From Aquabacterium fontiphilum (GTDB lineage: Bacteria > Pseudomonadota > Gammaproteobacteria > Burkholderiales > Burkholderiaceae_C), in contig NZ_JAAAPN010000003.1 in assembly GCF_009909205.1 (NCBI RefSeq), positions 248,001-312,000 on the forward strand: DNA of 64,000 nucleotides, in the 5' to 3' direction. Under the pieces are notes generated by a model that did no database searches, had not been told where the DNA came from, and saw only the letters and a program-made list of their open reading frames with translations. A program made the translations under genes and the position numbers. The number at the start of each line of letters is the position of its first letter. Within the stretch, counting starts at the first letter, position 1. Positions 9,260 to 28,162 of the stretch are shown here, one piece after another.

Positions 9260-9361
9260 GGGGAATCCTTTCTGGGGGTGGGGCCCTGCGCCATTGTGGG
9301 GCATTTCGACGGAATCGCCTGCAGGTGACAGTGGCGTGACTGGCCATCATGGCGGATCGGT

Positions 9362-20712: not shown

Positions 20713-21225
20713 TTACTTCTTGGCAGGCGGCACCATCACGGTGTCGATCACGTGAATGATGCCGTTGCCGGTGGTGATGTCGGCACGTTGCACCATGCCA
20801 TCTTCCACAGTGATGAAATCGCCCGCTTTGGAGATGCCGATCTTGGTGCCGGCCGCGGTGGTCACCGTCACGTTCTCCTTGATGCTGTCCTTGCTGTGGA
20901 GGCCCGGCACCACATGGTGCTGCAGCACGGTCTTGAGCTGCTGGGGGTCTTTGGACAGCGTGTCCAGTGTCGCAGCCGGCAGGGCCTTGAAGGCTTCGTC
21001 GTTCGGCGCAAACACCGTGACAGGGCCTTGAGCCTGCAGCGTCTCAGTCAGGCCGGCCTGCTGCACCAGCTTGTAGAACGTGCTCAGGTCGGCCTGCTGG
21101 CTGGCTGCAGCCACCACATTGGCGGGCGGCGTGGCCGGCGTGGTGGATGCGCAGCCGGTCAGGGCGATCAGCGCAGCGGCCATGGCGGCAGTCAGGGTAT
21201 GTTGCGGGATACGGCGAAAGGTCAT
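20713..21225 (-). CDS. fasciclin (FAS1)-domain lipoprotein
   Basis: The 170-residue exported protein has a signal peptide ending in the lipobox LTGC, so it is probably a lipoprotein. A short Thr/Pro/Ala linker leads into one FAS1 domain (about 45-170) with VTVFAPNDEAF near its start and NGIIHVIDTVMVPP at its end. FAS1 domains serve adhesion or surface interactions; no enzyme activity is expected. The ATG at 21225 follows AGGAGAA with a good spacer. It diverges from pstS, and three Pho half-sites in its orientation lie 60-90 bases upstream, so it is probably induced by phosphate starvation. Confidence 0.88.
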   Translation of the reverse strand: MTFRRIPQHTLTAAMAAALIALTGCASTTPATPPANVVAAASQQADLSTFYKLVQQAGLTETLQAQGPVTVFAPNDEAFKALPAATLDTLSKDPQQLKTVLQHHVVPGLHSKDSIKENVTVTTAAGTKIGISKAGDFITVEDGMVQRADITTGNGIIHVIDTVMVPPAKK

Positions 21226-21285
21226 GGGTTCTCCTGTAAAAGCTCCCGGACAGAATGGAGCATGGCGAGAAGATAAAAATGTCAT

Positions 21286-21314
21286 GTGACAAATGGGTGA
21301 CGGTCAGATGACAA
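21286..21314 (-). promoter_or_regulatory. triple Pho half-site array ahead of the fasciclin lipoprotein gene
   Basis: On the minus strand three 7-mers lie in exact 11-base register: TTGTCAT (21308-21314), CCGTCAC (21297-21303) and TTGTCAC (21286-21292), with 4-base spacers. The PhoB consensus is CTGTCAT repeated every 11 bases. The array ends 60 bases before the start codon, a normal place for a PhoB-activated promoter. Confidence 0.65.
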
Positions 21315-21394: not shown

Positions 21395-21412
21395 CTGTCA
21401 TATTCGCGTCAC
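21395..21412 (+). promoter_or_regulatory. Pho box ahead of pstS
   Basis: CTGTCAT (21395-21401), a 4-base spacer ATTC and GCGTCAC (21406-21412) form a standard two-half-site Pho box. The first half-site is identical to consensus. It lies 63 bases before the pstS ATG. It points in the opposite direction to the array serving the fasciclin gene. Confidence 0.8.
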
Positions 21413-21475
21413 AAACGCTTCTTACAGTCCGGCCTGTTCCCAATTGGTCTGTCTGAAGACGAGAAAGGCGTTCAC

Positions 21476-22513
21476 ATGATCCTCAAGATGATCCGCACTG
21501 CCGCTGCTGCTGCCACTTTCGCAGCCCTGACTGGTGCCGTGATGGCTCAGAGCGTGACCGGGGCTGGTGCCACGTTCCCGGCTCCCCTGTATTCCAAGTG
21601 GGCTGCTGGCTACAACGCTGAAACGGGCGTGCGCATCAACTACCAGTCGGTGGGTTCCGGTGCCGGCCTGCGCCAGATCCGTGGCAAGACCGTCGACTTC
21701 GGGGCTTCCGACATGCCGCTGAAGGACGACGAACTGGCCAAGGATGGCCTGATGCAGTTCCCGACGGTGATCGGCGGCGTGGTGCCCGTGGTCAACATCA
21801 GGGGCGTTCAGCCGGGTCAGCTGCGCCTGACGGGTGAAGTTCTGGGCAACATCTACCTCGGCAAGATCACTCGCTGGAATGACCCCGCCATCACGGCGCT
21901 GAACCCGGGCGTTGCGCTGCCGGATGCAGCCATCGCGCCGGTCCGCCGCGCCGACGGCTCTGGCACCACCTTCATCTTCACCAACTACCTGTCCAAGGTG
22001 AACGCGGAGTGGAAGTCCAGGGTGGGCGAAGGCACCGCCGTGAACTGGCCGGCCGGTGCCGGCGGTAAGGGCAACGAGGGCGTTTCCGCTTTCGTGATGC
22101 GTCTGCCGAACTCGATCGGCTACGTTGAATACGCCTACGCCAAGCAAAACCGCATGTCGCACGTGCAGATGCGCAACGCGGCTGGCGCGTTCGTTCAGCC
22201 CAGCGATGACTCCTTCAAGGCCGCAGCGTCGGGCGCCGACTGGAACAAGTCGTTCTATCAGATCCTGACGAATCAGCCGGATCGTGGTGCATGGCCCATC
22301 ACCGGTGCAACGTTCATCATGATGCACCTCAAGCAGGACAAGCCGCAGCAGGCCATCGAGTCGCTGAAGTTCTTCGACTGGGCTTTCAACAAGGGCGACA
22401 AGGCTGCTGAGGAGCTGGTTTATGTGCCGCTGCCCCCCAGCGTGAAGGATCTGGTCCGCAAGGAGTGGACCAAGATCACCGACGCCTCGGGTAAGGCCAT
22501 CTCCATCAAGTGA
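21476..22513 (+). CDS. pstS: phosphate ABC transporter, periplasmic binding protein
   Basis: The 345-residue protein captures inorganic phosphate in the periplasm for PstCAB. The signal peptide ends MAQS. The mature part begins VTGAGATFPAPLYSKW, followed by YQSVGSGAGLRQI and VDFGASDMPL, and RADGSGTTFIFTNYL forms part of the phosphate site. AAAGG lies seven bases before the ATG. It leads the phosphate operon, behind a Pho box and followed by an attenuating hairpin. Confidence 0.97.
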   Translation: MILKMIRTAAAAATFAALTGAVMAQSVTGAGATFPAPLYSKWAAGYNAETGVRINYQSVGSGAGLRQIRGKTVDFGASDMPLKDDELAKDGLMQFPTVIGGVVPVVNIRGVQPGQLRLTGEVLGNIYLGKITRWNDPAITALNPGVALPDAAIAPVRRADGSGTTFIFTNYLSKVNAEWKSRVGEGTAVNWPAGAGGKGNEGVSAFVMRLPNSIGYVEYAYAKQNRMSHVQMRNAAGAFVQPSDDSFKAAASGADWNKSFYQILTNQPDRGAWPITGATFIMMHLKQDKPQQAIESLKFFDWAFNKGDKAAEELVYVPLPPSVKDLVRKEWTKITDASGKAISIK

Positions 22514-22534
22514 TCCACGTGGATCGCTGATCAG

Positions 22535-22570
22535 ACCGGGCACTTGGACGCCGAGTGCCCGGTTTCTTGT
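22535..22570 (+). terminator. attenuator/terminator between pstS and pstC
   Basis: ACCGGGCACT (22535-22544) pairs perfectly with AGTGCCCGGT (22554-22563), and TTCTTGTT follows. Its place in the 119-base pstS-pstC gap would let PstS be made in excess over the membrane subunits. The T-run is imperfect, so read-through is likely. Confidence 0.7.
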
Positions 22571-22632
22571 TGTAGCGCCTCAAGCAGTCACAGCTTCATG
22601 CAAACCGCTCGCCACGATGACGGAGGTCTTGA

Positions 22633-23658
22633 ATGACCGCGATTCTTCCCGCCGGCATGGATGATGCCGGCTCTCGTCCAGACGATCTTCGCCGTCCCAT
22701 GACCAATCCCCCAGAACGCCGCGTCTCCGCCCCATGGGCGGATGCTCTGTTTGCCTTGCTGGCCCGAGGCGCCGCCATCCTGACCCTGTTGCTGCTGTTT
22801 GCGATCATTGCGTCGCTGGTCGTCGGCGCGTGGCCCTCCATCCAGGAGTACGGCATCAGCTTCCTGTGGCGCAGTGAATGGGATCCCGTGCAGGACCAGT
22901 ACGGTGGCCTTGTGATGATCTACGGCACGCTGATGACGTCGTTCATCGCTCTGTTGATCGCCGTGCCAGTGAGTTTCGGCATTGCCCTGTTTCTGACTGA
23001 GTTGTCGCCTTCGTGGCTCAAGCGCCCCCTGGGCATTGCCATCGAGTTGCTGGCGGCGGTTCCGTCGATCGTGTACGGCATGTGGGGCCTGCTCGTGTTT
23101 GGCCCCATCCTGTCAACCTATGTGCAGCAGCCGCTGCAGGCAGCCACCGAAGGCATTCCGTATCTGTCCGCGCTGTTTTCCGGCCCTCCGGTGGGCATCG
23201 GTATCCTGTCGGCCGGCATCATCCTGGCGATCATGATCATCCCGTTCATCGCTTCCGTGATGCGGGACGTGTTCGAAGTCACGCCCCCGCTGCTGAAGGA
23301 GTCGGCCTACGGCCTGGGTTCGACCACCTGGGAGGTGGTCTGGAAGGTCGTGCTGCCCTACACCAAGACGGGTGTGGTCGGCGGCATCATGCTGGGTTTG
23401 GGGCGTGCGCTGGGTGAAACCATGGCCGTCACGTTCGTGATCGGCAACATGAACCAGCTTGACAGCCTGTCGCTGTTCGAGGCGGCCAACAGCATCACCT
23501 CGGCGCTGGCCAACGAGTTTGCCGAAGCGAACGTGGGCCTGCACCAGGCCTCGCTGATCTACCTCGGCCTCGTGCTGTTCTTCATCACCTTTGTCGTGCT
23601 GGCGTTCTCCAAGATCCTGCTGGCGCGCCTCAAGAAGTCGGAAGGAGCGCGTTCATGA
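22633..23658 (+). CDS. pstC: phosphate ABC transporter permease PstC
   Basis: The 341-residue inner-membrane permease has about six helices. The binding-protein-dependent transport signature is [19 protein letters not shown], where the cytoplasmic EAA loop contacts PstB. The N-terminal 35 residues are polar. GGAGG lies seven bases before the ATG at 22633. The stop overlaps the pstA start by four bases. Confidence 0.96.
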
Positions 23659-24512
23659 GCGCCGAACTGCAACTGCAGCGTGCGCGGATGCACGCGTCGC
23701 GCAAGCGCGTCAACATCATCGCGCTGACCCTGTCGCTGGCGGCCATGGCTTTCGGTCTGGTCTGGCTGGTTTGGATTTTGTTCGAGACGGTCCGGCTCGG
23801 CATCGATGGCCTGACGATGGCCACCTTTACCCAAATGACGCCTGCGCCGATGGAGGAGGGCGGTCTGGCCAACGCCATCATGGGTTCGCTCATCATGGTG
23901 GGGCTGGCCACGGCCATCGGCACGCCCGTTGGCATGCTGGCTGGCATCTACCTGGCGGAGTATGGTCAGCAAGGGTGGCTGGGCAGCCTGACGCGCTTCA
24001 TCAACGACATCCTGTTGTCGGCCCCTTCGATCGTGATTGGTCTGTTCATTTATTCGGTGGTGGTGGCCCGCACGCTCACCTTCTCCGGCTGGGCCGGCGT
24101 GCTGGCCCTGGCCCTCATCGTGGTGCCGGTGGTGATCCGCACGACCGAGAACATGCTGATGCTGATCCCCAATGCGCTGCGTGAAGCCGCTTATGCGCTG
24201 GGCACGCCGAAGTGGAAGGTCATCCTGACCATCACGCTGAAGTCCGCCCGGGCTGGTGTGATCACGGGCATCCTGCTTGCTCTGGCGCGCATCGCCGGCG
24301 AAACGGCGCCGTTGCTGTTCACCGCGCTGTCCAACCAATTCTGGAACACCGACCTGGGCTCGCCGATGGCCAGCCTGCCGGTGACCATCTTCAAGTTTGC
24401 GATGAGCCCGTTCGAGAACTGGCAGAAACTGGCCTGGGCCGGTGTCTTCCTGATCACGCTGGGTGTGCTGACGCTCAACATCATCGCTCGTACCCTGTTC
24501 CGCCAGCGCTGA
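23655..24512 (+). CDS. pstA: phosphate ABC transporter permease PstA
   Basis: This 285-residue partner of PstC has six predicted helices. The EAA-type loop is seen in [14 protein letters not shown] and [18 protein letters not shown]. The start overlaps pstC in ATGA, so translation is probably coupled and the two subunits made in equal amounts. A 38-base gap precedes pstB. Confidence 0.96.
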
Positions 24513-24550
24513 TGGCGCGGCACGCACCTTACTGACGGAGATCCAAAATC

Positions 24551-25336
24551 ATGGATGCCAAGGTTCAAAACGCCACCCCTGCAAAGGCCAAGCTGTCTGT
24601 TCGTGACCTGAACTTCTACTACGGCAAGTTCCACGCGCTCAAGAACGTCAACATGGAGCTGCCCGAGAACAAGGTCACGGCCTTTATCGGGCCGTCTGGC
24701 TGCGGTAAGTCCACACTGTTGCGCACTTTCAACCGCATGTTCGAGCTGTATCCTGAACAGCGTGCCGAAGGCCAGATCCTGCTGGATGGCCAGGACATCC
24801 TGACATCGCGGGAGGATGTGTCGCTGATCCGCGCCCGCGTGGGCATGGTCTTTCAGAAACCGACGCCCTTCCCGATGTCCATCTACGAGAACATCGCCTT
24901 TGGCGTGCGCCTGTTCGAGAAGCTGTCTCGTTCGGAGATGGACGAGCGCGTGGAGTGGGCGCTGAAGAAGGCTGCGCTGTGGAACGAAGTCAAGGACAAG
25001 CTCAACCAGAGCGGCTCTGGCCTGTCCGGGGGGCAGCAGCAGCGTCTGTGTATTGCCCGGGGCATCGCGATCAAGCCCGAGGTGTTGCTGCTCGACGAAC
25101 CCTGTTCGGCCCTGGACCCGATTTCCACCGGCAAGATCGAAGAGCTCATCCACGAGCTCAAGAACGACTACACCGTGTTGATCGTGACGCACAACATGCA
25201 GCAGGCTGCCCGTTGTTCCGATTTCACGGCCTACATGTACCTGGGCGAGTTGATCGAGTTCGGTGCCACTACCGATATCTTCATGAAGCCCAAGCGCACC
25301 GAGACCGAAGACTACATCACCGGCCGTTTCGGTTGA
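24551..25336 (+). CDS. pstB: phosphate ABC transporter ATP-binding protein PstB
   Basis: This 261-residue ATPase drives PstCA. Walker A is GPSGCGKST, the Q-loop [11 protein letters not shown], the signature [14 protein letters not shown], Walker [14 protein letters not shown] and the H-loop IVTHNMQQA. The N-terminus [18 protein letters not shown] is typical. GGAG precedes the ATG. With PhoU and PhoR it also forms the phosphate-sensing complex. Confidence 0.97.
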
Positions 25337-25378
25337 TGAGCTGGCCAACCCATACCAACACAGAAGACGGAGCAGCCC

Positions 25379-26086
25379 ATGTCCGACAAGCACCTCTCCA
25401 GCCAGTTTGATGCCGAGCTCAGCGGCGTGTCCACACGCGTGCTGGAAATGGGCGGTCTGGTCGAGTCCCAGATCGCGCAGGCCATTTATTCACTGACGCA
25501 TTTCAGCGGCGATGTGGCCACCCAGGTTCTGCAGACGGAAGCCCGCGTGAACCTGCTGGAGATGGAGATCGACGCCGATCTGTCGACCATCATCGCGCGC
25601 CGTCAGCCGACGGCACGTGATCTGCGACTGCTGATCGCCATCTCCAAGACGATCGGCAACCTCGAACGGGTGGGCGACGAGGCCGCGCGCATCGCGCGGA
25701 CGGTGCAGCGCCTGATCAACACCGGCGTGTCAACGCGGCTGCGCCTGCCGGTGAGCGATGTCTCGTTCGAGGCTTCCCTGGCCACCGCCTCACTGCGTCG
25801 CTCGCTGGATGCATTTGCGCGCCTGGACACCCAGGCTGCACTCGAAGTGATCAAGGGCGACAACGAGATCGACGCCGAGTTTGACGGCCTGATGCGCAAG
25901 CTCATTACCTACATGATGGAAGACCCTCGCACCATTTCGGCCTCCATCGATCTGGTGTTCGTGGCCAAGGCGATCGAGCGCGTGGGTGACCACGCCAAGA
26001 ACCTTGCCGAGCAGGTGATCTACATCGTCAAGGGCGCCGACGTTCGGCACAACACCCCCGAAGACGTCGAGTCCATCATCAAGTAA
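25379..26086 (+). CDS. phoU: phosphate signalling regulator PhoU
   Basis: This 235-residue all-helical protein is made of two three-helix PhoU repeats (about 10-110 and 115-225). Each holds an E/DxxxD metal-binding pattern, for example EMEIDADLSTIIARRQP and GDNEIDAEFDGLM. It passes the transport state of PstSCAB to the PhoR kinase and keeps the Pho regulon off when phosphate is plentiful. It sits between pstB and phoB, the usual place. Confidence 0.95.
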   Translation: MSDKHLSSQFDAELSGVSTRVLEMGGLVESQIAQAIYSLTHFSGDVATQVLQTEARVNLLEMEIDADLSTIIARRQPTARDLRLLIAISKTIGNLERVGDEAARIARTVQRLINTGVSTRLRLPVSDVSFEASLATASLRRSLDAFARLDTQAALEVIKGDNEIDAEFDGLMRKLITYMMEDPRTISASIDLVFVAKAIERVGDHAKNLAEQVIYIVKGADVRHNTPEDVESIIK

Positions 26087-26104
26087 GCCCGTCGGGAGCC
26101 AAGC

Positions 26105-26806
<702 letters not shown>

Positions 26807-26818
26807 CCGCCCCGACTT

Positions 26819-28162
26819 GTGATCGTTGAATCCAATTCTTCGTGGCTGCTGTCGCGCGTGGGTGCGCGCCTGCTGTCTGCGCTGGCCGGCGGGCTGGCCG
26901 GATGGGGGCTTGGGGAGTGGCTGGGCTATCCCACCACACTCGCATTCGCGGGCGCCGGCGTGGCGGTCCTGACGCTGTCGGTGGCCGACACCCTCAAGGG
27001 AAACGAACTCCTGGACTGGCTGCGCAATCCAGACGCTGACCCGCCAGAGCTGCCCGGTCTGTGGGGCGAGGTGGCACACCGCATCCGGCGCCTCGTGATC
27101 CAGCGCAACCAAGCCGTCACCCACGAGCGCGCACGGCTGGATCAGTTCCTGTCAGCCATCGAGGTTTCGCCCAATGGCGTGATGCTGCTTGACGAGACGG
27201 ACCACATCGTGTGGCTGAGTTCGGTGGCAGCAGACCATTTCGGCCTGAATGCCCGTACAGACCTGCAGCAGCGAGTGACCAACCTCGTTCGCTACCCCAG
27301 CTTTGTCCAGTATCTGGCAGCGGGCGACTACCGTGAGCCGGTGAAGTGCGTGGTGGCGCGTGGCGCGCTGACGCACATGCAGGTTCACGTTCGCGTTTAC
27401 GGCGAGGGCATGAAGCTGGTCGTGTCGCAGGACATCTCCGAGCGCGAACGGGCCGACACCATGCGTCGTGACTTCGTGGCCAACGTGTCGCACGAGATCC
27501 GCACGCCCCTGACCGTGCTCAGTGGCTTCATCGAGACCATGGCCACGCTGTCATTGACCGAGGTCGAGCGCAAGCGCGTGATCGAACTCATGACGCAGCA
27601 GGCTGCCCGCATGCAGACGCTGGTGGCCGATCTGCTGACGCTGGCGCAGATTGAAGGCAGCCCCCGGCCCGCTTCCGACCGCTGGATGTCGCTGGAGGCC
27701 ATGCTGCGTCGCATAGAAAGCGACGGTCTGGCCCTGTCTGCGGGGCGCCACCGACTGGCTTTCCACATCACCGACGCAGTCGGGCTGTCCTTGTCCGGTG
27801 TGGAGACGGAATGGCTCAGCGCCATGGGCAATCTTGTGTCCAATGCCATTCGGTACACGCCCGAGGGCGGGGCAGTAGAGGTCAGCTGGGTGAGCCGTGC
27901 GGATGGAGGCGGCGAGTTCCGTGTCAAAGACACGGGTATTGGCATTGCGCCCGAGCATTTGCCGCGCCTGACCGAGCGCTTCTATCGCGTGGACGGCAGC
28001 CGCTCGCGGGACACGGGGGGGACCGGCTTGGGGCTGTCCATCGTCAAGCACGTCATCCAGCGCCACGGCGGTGAGCTGAAGGTCACCAGTGAGCCTGGCA
28101 AGGGTTCGGTGTTCAGTCTGACGGTGCCACCCACGCGGGTGCGCAGTGCTGAAGCAGACTGA
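26819..28162 (+). CDS. phoR: phosphate regulon sensor histidine kinase PhoR
   Basis: The 447-residue kinase has two N-terminal hydrophobic stretches (about 10-60), a charged linker and a PAS domain (about 100-200, SAIEVSPNGVMLLDE). Dimerisation and phosphotransfer occur at His in NVSHEIRTPLTVL, and ATP-binding boxes are NLVSNAIRYTPEGG, DTGIGI and GGTGLGLSIVKH. It starts with GTG 12 bases after phoB. It lacks a large periplasmic domain, as expected when phosphate is sensed through PstSCAB-PhoU. Confidence 0.95.
   Translation: MIVESNSSWLLSRVGARLLSALAGGLAGWGLGEWLGYPTTLAFAGAGVAVLTLSVADTLKGNELLDWLRNPDADPPELPGLWGEVAHRIRRLVIQRNQAVTHERARLDQFLSAIEVSPNGVMLLDETDHIVWLSSVAADHFGLNARTDLQQRVTNLVRYPSFVQYLAAGDYREPVKCVVARGALTHMQVHVRVYGEGMKLVVSQDISERERADTMRRDFVANVSHEIRTPLTVLSGFIETMATLSLTEVERKRVIELMTQQAARMQTLVADLLTLAQIEGSPRPASDRWMSLEAMLRRIESDGLALSAGRHRLAFHITDAVGLSLSGVETEWLSAMGNLVSNAIRYTPEGGAVEVSWVSRADGGGEFRVKDTGIGIAPEHLPRLTERFYRVDGSRSRDTGGTGLGLSIVKHVIQRHGGELKVTSEPGKGSVFSLTVPPTRVRSAEAD

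Follow-up and report, generated by a model that had tools for sequence, protein, structure and literature searches.

The window analysed here, a 64 kb stretch of DNA whose coordinates count from its first letter, carries a small fasciclin (FAS1) gene, fas1, on the minus strand, divergent from the run pstS-pstC-pstA-pstB-phoU-phoB-phoR (21476-28162, plus strand). This arrangement raises the question of whether fas1 is itself controlled by PhoB and, if so, what a FAS1 lipoprotein may do in phosphate-starved cells. In those parts of the open-access PMC literature that were consulted, with subscription papers lying outside them, no fasciclin gene under PhoB or in the Pho regulon was found. The features concerned are as follows.

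20713-21225, minus strand: fas1, encoding a 170-residue lipoprotein with one FAS1 (fasciclin) domain, a signal peptide, the lipobox LTG/C and Ala at +2
21270-21275, minus strand: -10-like hexamer TATCTT of the presumed fas1 promoter, the final six columns of the matrix match
21286-21314, minus strand: Pho array facing fas1, three PhoB-type half-sites in 11-base register
21395-21412, plus strand: Pho box facing pstS, with the two half-sites CTGTCAT and GCGTCAC (matrix match)
21423-21428, plus strand: -10-like hexamer TACAGT of the presumed pstS promoter (matrix match)
21476-22513, plus strand: pstS, phosphate-binding protein (NF008171, 471.9 bits, cut-off 339)
22633-23658, plus strand: pstC (NF008435, 519 bits, cut-off 502)
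23655-24512, plus strand: pstA (NF008430, 497.6 bits, cut-off 439)
24551-25336, plus strand: pstB (TIGR00972, 401.4 bits, cut-off 343.2)
25379-26086, plus strand: phoU (TIGR02135, 202.9 bits, cut-off 130.25)
26105-26806, plus strand: phoB, the presumed activator (TIGR02154, 342.8 bits, cut-off 296.2)
26819-28162, plus strand: phoR (TIGR02966, 388.5 bits, cut-off 334.2)

The fas1 gene, its product and the intergenic region

All seven genes of the pst-pho run are named by NCBIfam models that score above their cut-offs, including those for PhoB (TIGR02154) and PhoR (TIGR02966), the pair that a Pho regulon calls for. On the side away from pstS, fas1 is adjoined by glmM. Although the reading frame of fas1 is open from 21285, the ATG at 21225 is the better start, since AGGAGA lies just 5' of it and a signal peptide with the lipobox LTGC follows. 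With the gene so delimited to 20713-21225, the Pho array is placed upstream of it.

The fas1 product matches Pfam PF02469 with 129.3 bits over residues 46-166 (curated cut-off 22). Its lipobox, LTG/CA, has no Asp at +2, as is expected of an outer-membrane lipoprotein. A simple pattern calls a lipobox in 52 of 56 fas1 homologues, and the lipobox Cys is absent from two of those in Aquabacterium. According to the +2 rule for lipoprotein sorting, an Ala at this position sends the protein to the outer membrane, and from its sequence the fas1 product is probably an outer-membrane lipoprotein. Values of dN/dS for fas1 lie at 0.07-0.23 in four close pairs of relatives. The predicted model of the protein, with a mean pLDDT of 81.7 that is low in the signal peptide, adopts the FAS1 fold (TM-score 0.94 to 2ltb, by target length) and resembles the FAS1 structures of TGFBIp, periostin, CupS and a Rhodobacter protein; TGFBIp and periostin are among its best solved relatives.

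Candidate PhoB sites were scored with two matrices. One covers 34 bases, comprising two half-sites plus the -10 element, and its training set consisted solely of 40 pstS promoters lacking a close FAS1 neighbour; these places were taken in the order of the PstS list, with close-FAS1 neighbours skipped and genome G102 passed over. The other is an E. coli PhoB matrix built from 58 published ChIP-seq sites (PMC10294691). On the minus strand, the half-sites facing fas1 read TTGTCAT (21314-21308), CCGTCAC (21303-21297) and TTGTCAC (21292-21286), spaced by 11 bases, and the array scores 17.7 bits with the pstS-trained matrix and 17.9 with the E. coli matrix. The box facing pstS scores 38.4 and 17.1 bits, respectively, its match spanning 21395-21428 with the hexamer included. 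The first-pass annotation had described three half-sites in exact 11-base register facing the fasciclin gene, as well as a separate Pho box facing pstS; both are confirmed, the former at 21314-21286 on the minus strand and the latter at 21395-21412 on the plus strand.

Such sites go beyond what chance would give in the window. The triple pattern YGTCAYN5YGTCAYN5YGTCAY matches once, and in none of 100 dinucleotide shuffles, while the pair pattern matches four times against an expected 0.14. With the E. coli matrix, the best match in the 64 kb is the fas1 site (17.9), followed by the pstS site (17.1), and the other fas1 half-site pair comes fourth. The two top sites, those of fas1 and pstS, are the only ones in the window to reach 14 bits with the pstS-trained matrix. 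The third-best E. coli matrix match (15.2), AGTCACGCCACTGTCACC at 9324-9341 on the minus strand, lies some 60-80 bases ahead of a minus-strand ATG and stays below 14 bits with the pstS-trained matrix.

Across the whole genome, the pair pattern has 18 matches, and its reversed control none. Three of the 18 belong to fas1 and pstS. Others stand before phoX, ppk2 and ppk1, scoring 28.8, 7.8 and only -12.6 bits, respectively, with the pstS-trained matrix; a further three make up a four-half-site array (0.0 bits) before an olsB-like acyltransferase gene. No phosphate gene was identified beside nine of the matches, and some matches fall inside open frames. In E. coli, many sites are bound by PhoB yet inert, intragenic ones according to the title of PMC10294691. 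The array before the olsB-like gene (contig C2, 144674-144712) has its four half-sites in 11-base register. The gene, which resembles an OlsB-type ornithine N-acyltransferase, matches Pfam PF13444 and scores 180 bits with the NCBIfam olsB model, below the cut-off of 350; the array suggests that ornithine lipid synthesis may also be phosphate-controlled in this organism.

Conservation and specificity of the Pho array

The arrangement of the window recurs among relatives. Within 200 genomes of the family, some of them incomplete, some FAS1 match is found in 114 and some PstS match in 182. Close FAS1 homologues, defined by a match better than E=1e-33 (a threshold set after a gap from 1.5e-33 to 3.4e-28 had been seen), occur in 57 genomes that represent 47 of 141 genera, with no close homologue in the other 143 genomes. 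In 56 of the 57, the homologue is divergent from pstS, an arrangement that for two genomes (G019 and G140) was settled by tblastn on fetched stretches; the exception is G083. In a separate collection, covering the best 80 of 455 relatives, the divergent pair is also present at nine named loci from Aquabacterium, Paucibacter, Roseateles and unassigned beta or Burkholderiales bins, and the flanks examined at the other 71 loci hold no PstS like that of the window at E 1e-10.

When the intergenic regions were scanned towards fas1, all 54 beat their shuffles, with at most 2 of 200 shuffles scoring as high. The co-occurrence check proposed in the first-pass annotation, a FAS1 gene with Pho boxes beside pstS in related genomes, has thereby been run and comes out in favour of the pairing. 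The median score facing fas1 is 15.2 bits versus -19 for 1080 shuffles, and 28 of the 54 regions reach at least 15 bits versus none of the pooled 1080, although three regions score below 5 bits (L113, L118 and L121). The fas1 matches are weaker than those of pstS, for which the median is 33.5 bits. Three genomes kept out of the 54 and scored separately, G019, G083 and G140, give 14.3, 6.3 and 15.5 bits; the homologue in G083 is unlinked, and its match, at only 6.3 bits, is still reached by none of 500 shuffles. At the nine named loci, the scores range from 7.9 to 31.3 bits, values reached by no more than 1 of 200 shuffles. The E. coli matrix places 49 of 54 fas1-facing and all 54 pstS-facing regions above the 95th percentile of shuffles.

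Other FAS1 genes do not share this feature. No facing box was seen upstream of 21 other FAS1 genes of the family, which were the first of its weaker FAS1 matches (best -12.9 bits; G106, included among them, -24.2 bits). Thirteen FAS1 loci of the order (L228 and L230-L241) have no facing match of 2 bits, none of the 68 more distant loci with enough upstream DNA (out of 71) reaches 5 bits, and the other FAS1 places in the window's own genome (L002-L004) have no match of at least 0 bits. A general link between FAS1 genes and Pho control is rejected by the family, order and distant loci; the box is kept in orthologous fas1 promoters and is absent from paralogues.

The fas1 promoters also have an architecture of their own. 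A third half-site, 11 bases upstream and outside the matrix, matches in at least 5 of 7 letters in 41 of the 54 fas1 promoters, compared with 7 of 54 pstS promoters, 4 of the 40 pstS promoters used as controls and 5.4% of random 7-mers, so that a triple array is what fas1 promoters typically have. In relatives, the weaker half-site is often the middle one. Their -10-like columns hold T in 50, A in 54 and the final T in 54 of 54 promoters, counts that come from columns of the very matrix that selected the sites. One fas1 promoter (L142, in G019) has four half-sites in register: TTGTCAT, TGGTCAC, AAGTCAC and TTGTCAC.

Unlinked and rearranged copies are found in other families. In family f13, two genomes (G258 and G211) have fas1 and pstS on different contigs with fas1 boxes of 18.4 and 18.9 bits, a score matched by 0 of 500 shuffles, and a third (G341) has the divergent form with 20.6 bits. 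In genus g195 of family f10, two genomes (G256 and G452; loci L229 and L264) carry pstS-pstC-pstA-pstB-fas1 on one strand. The box before pstS there scores 30.6 and 27.6 bits, no match at 5 bits lies directly before fas1, and phoU was not found in the stretch read around the run.

The region upstream of pstS is also of interest in genomes where it holds no FAS1 gene. A reverse box of at least 15 bits occurs in 10 of 40 such pstS regions. At loci L205-L214, the gap 5' of pstS is often occupied by a ppx, ppk2 or LivK-like gene that is divergent and has its own reverse Pho box; Pfam names ppx at L208, ppk2 at L213 and a periplasmic binding protein at L211, and by eye L206, L209, L210, L212 and L214, and perhaps L205, resemble ppx. 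It is as if the gap upstream of pstS collected phosphate genes. Like fas1, these ppx and ppk2 genes point away from pstS and have a reverse Pho box of their own, but they encode enzymes of polyphosphate metabolism and not an envelope protein. A LivK-like gene is also present 3' of fas1 in G083 (L244). Reading was extended in 20 of the FAS1-less pstS regions. In six of them glmM precedes pstS on the same strand, at a distance of 106-253 bases in five cases and of 472 bases at L215, and none of the six has a reverse box of at least 8 bits.

It might be argued that the minus-strand array belongs to the control of pstS, providing extra PhoB loading or pst autoregulation, and that fas1 is simply adjacent; the two arrays do lie some 80 bases apart within one intergenic region. 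Pho half-sites are directional, however, and the spacing of the array in relatives fits a -10-like element on the side of fas1. Furthermore, the glmM-pstS regions without FAS1 lack such a reverse box and the two unlinked fas1 genes of family f13 keep theirs, which makes an array serving pstS only quite improbable. That the array is a chance similarity is hardly credible: half-sites are short and some pair matches in the genome do fall within open frames, yet the shuffle counts, the conservation and the independent matrices all reject it.

On the evidence of these promoters, fas1 is very likely a member of the Pho regulon, activated by PhoB at low phosphate, with an exported, probably outer-membrane lipoprotein as its product. 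Membership had already been proposed in the first pass, and it now draws support from conservation across genomes, the specificity controls, the retention of the box in unlinked orthologues and the independent E. coli matrix. We infer the following course of events. Phosphate shortage would cause PhoR to phosphorylate PhoB. PhoB dimers would then occupy the head-to-tail array at 21314-21286 and bring RNA polymerase to the -10-like hexamer at 21275-21270, inducing fas1, with the separate two-half-site box driving pstS on the opposite strand. After export, the fas1 product would receive its lipid at Cys25 and, with Ala at +2, be directed to the outer membrane, and the FAS1 domain may then act from the periplasmic or outer face. 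The system resembles the E. coli-type PhoB/PhoR regulon in having PhoB and PhoR equivalogs beside pstSCAB-phoU and direct-repeat Pho boxes with an 11-base period that fit the E. coli ChIP-seq motif. It differs in that the controlled gene is a FAS1 lipoprotein, and in that three half-sites are typical of fas1 and two of pstS.

The FAS1 clade and the possible role of its lipoprotein

The Pho-linked proteins form a distinct group. In a tree made by a quick method with six long rows left out (L002, L004, L017, L021, L050 and L063), 70 Pho-linked FAS1 rows are separated from 81 others by one branch with an SH-aLRT of 99. On this tree the Pho-link label changes once. With the long rows included it needs two changes, because a very long-branched FAS1 of the window's own genome (L004) falls beside a Pho-linked row. 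The lipobox Cys is present in 96% of the Pho-linked clade versus 1% of 85 other FAS1 rows, of which about 4 in 10 are gapped at that place. The clade is distinguished by the residues of the lipobox and by others that are mostly hydrophobic or small, and a comparison of them gave no basic pattern and no functional hint. The protein shares its fold and sequence with single-domain bacterial FAS1 proteins such as Rhodobacter 1w7d, cyanobacterial CupS and MPT70, whereas the lipobox Cys, the Pho box and the pst neighbourhood belong to this clade. The fas1 gene thus appears, from its sequence and setting, to encode a lineage-specific and probably PhoB-controlled FAS1 lipoprotein.

What the protein does can be suggested with less assurance, and the roles put forward in the first-pass annotation, in adhesion or as an aid to phosphate scavenging, are speculative. 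A role in adjusting the envelope or surface of phosphate-starved cells is only weakly inferred, with about an even chance of being correct, and is placed ahead of direct help to PstSCAB. The product could be a dedicated helper of Pst that, for instance, keeps PstS or phosphate close to the outer membrane or to a porin. Its gene lies in the neighbourhood of pstS in 56 of 57 genomes, and the pstSCAB-fas1 run that two genomes from a different family carry keeps such a role under consideration, but shared control alone would also give this neighbourhood, and the clade-special residues display no basic pattern. An envelope or adhesion role is the likelier because close homologues are missing from 143 of the 200 family genomes though 182 have a PstS match, and we regard the helper role as doubtful.

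By analogy with the FAS1 proteins that mediate adhesion in animals, the product could instead be an adhesion or biofilm factor induced by phosphate shortage, a reading to which we give somewhat less than an even chance. The FAS1 domain is supported by Pfam, sequence and structure, with TGFBIp and periostin close at hand. Against this, there is a single short domain in which no adhesion-specific residues could be named, and FAS1 domains also occur in CupS and in carotenoid-binding proteins. A parallel may exist in mycobacteria, where the antigens MPB70 (structure 1nyo) and MPB83 are FAS1 proteins located, as the fas1 product may be, at the cell surface. A review lists APA, MPB83/MPB70 and PstS1 together as adhesins that increase in phosphate starvation, wording that may concern PstS1 only (PMC12757957). 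These proteins belong to another phylum, and no PhoB box is shown for them there. If the statement does hold for MPB70, it would be a precedent for a phosphate-responsive FAS1 protein in another phylum.

A more specific form of the envelope role is tentative, with the balance of probability against it. Here, the Burkholderiales branch of FAS1 lipoproteins would be a dedicated envelope part for phosphate starvation, acting in the periplasm with PstSCAB, for instance to keep PstS, or surface lipids and sugars that lack phosphate, in place at times when phosphate-bearing envelope parts are scarce. In some genomes, fas1 would then be the distal gene of the pst run.

The function of small bacterial FAS1 proteins has been a long-standing blank. 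As the Pho-linked proteins form one clade and have a clear promoter signature, phosphate shortage offers a concrete condition under which to test them, and the three-half-site rule can serve in looking for the same control elsewhere. From its promoter and its relatives, fas1 looks like an overlooked part of the phosphate-starvation response in related bacteria, one by which the classic regulon of certain freshwater and soil bacteria would gain an envelope protein.
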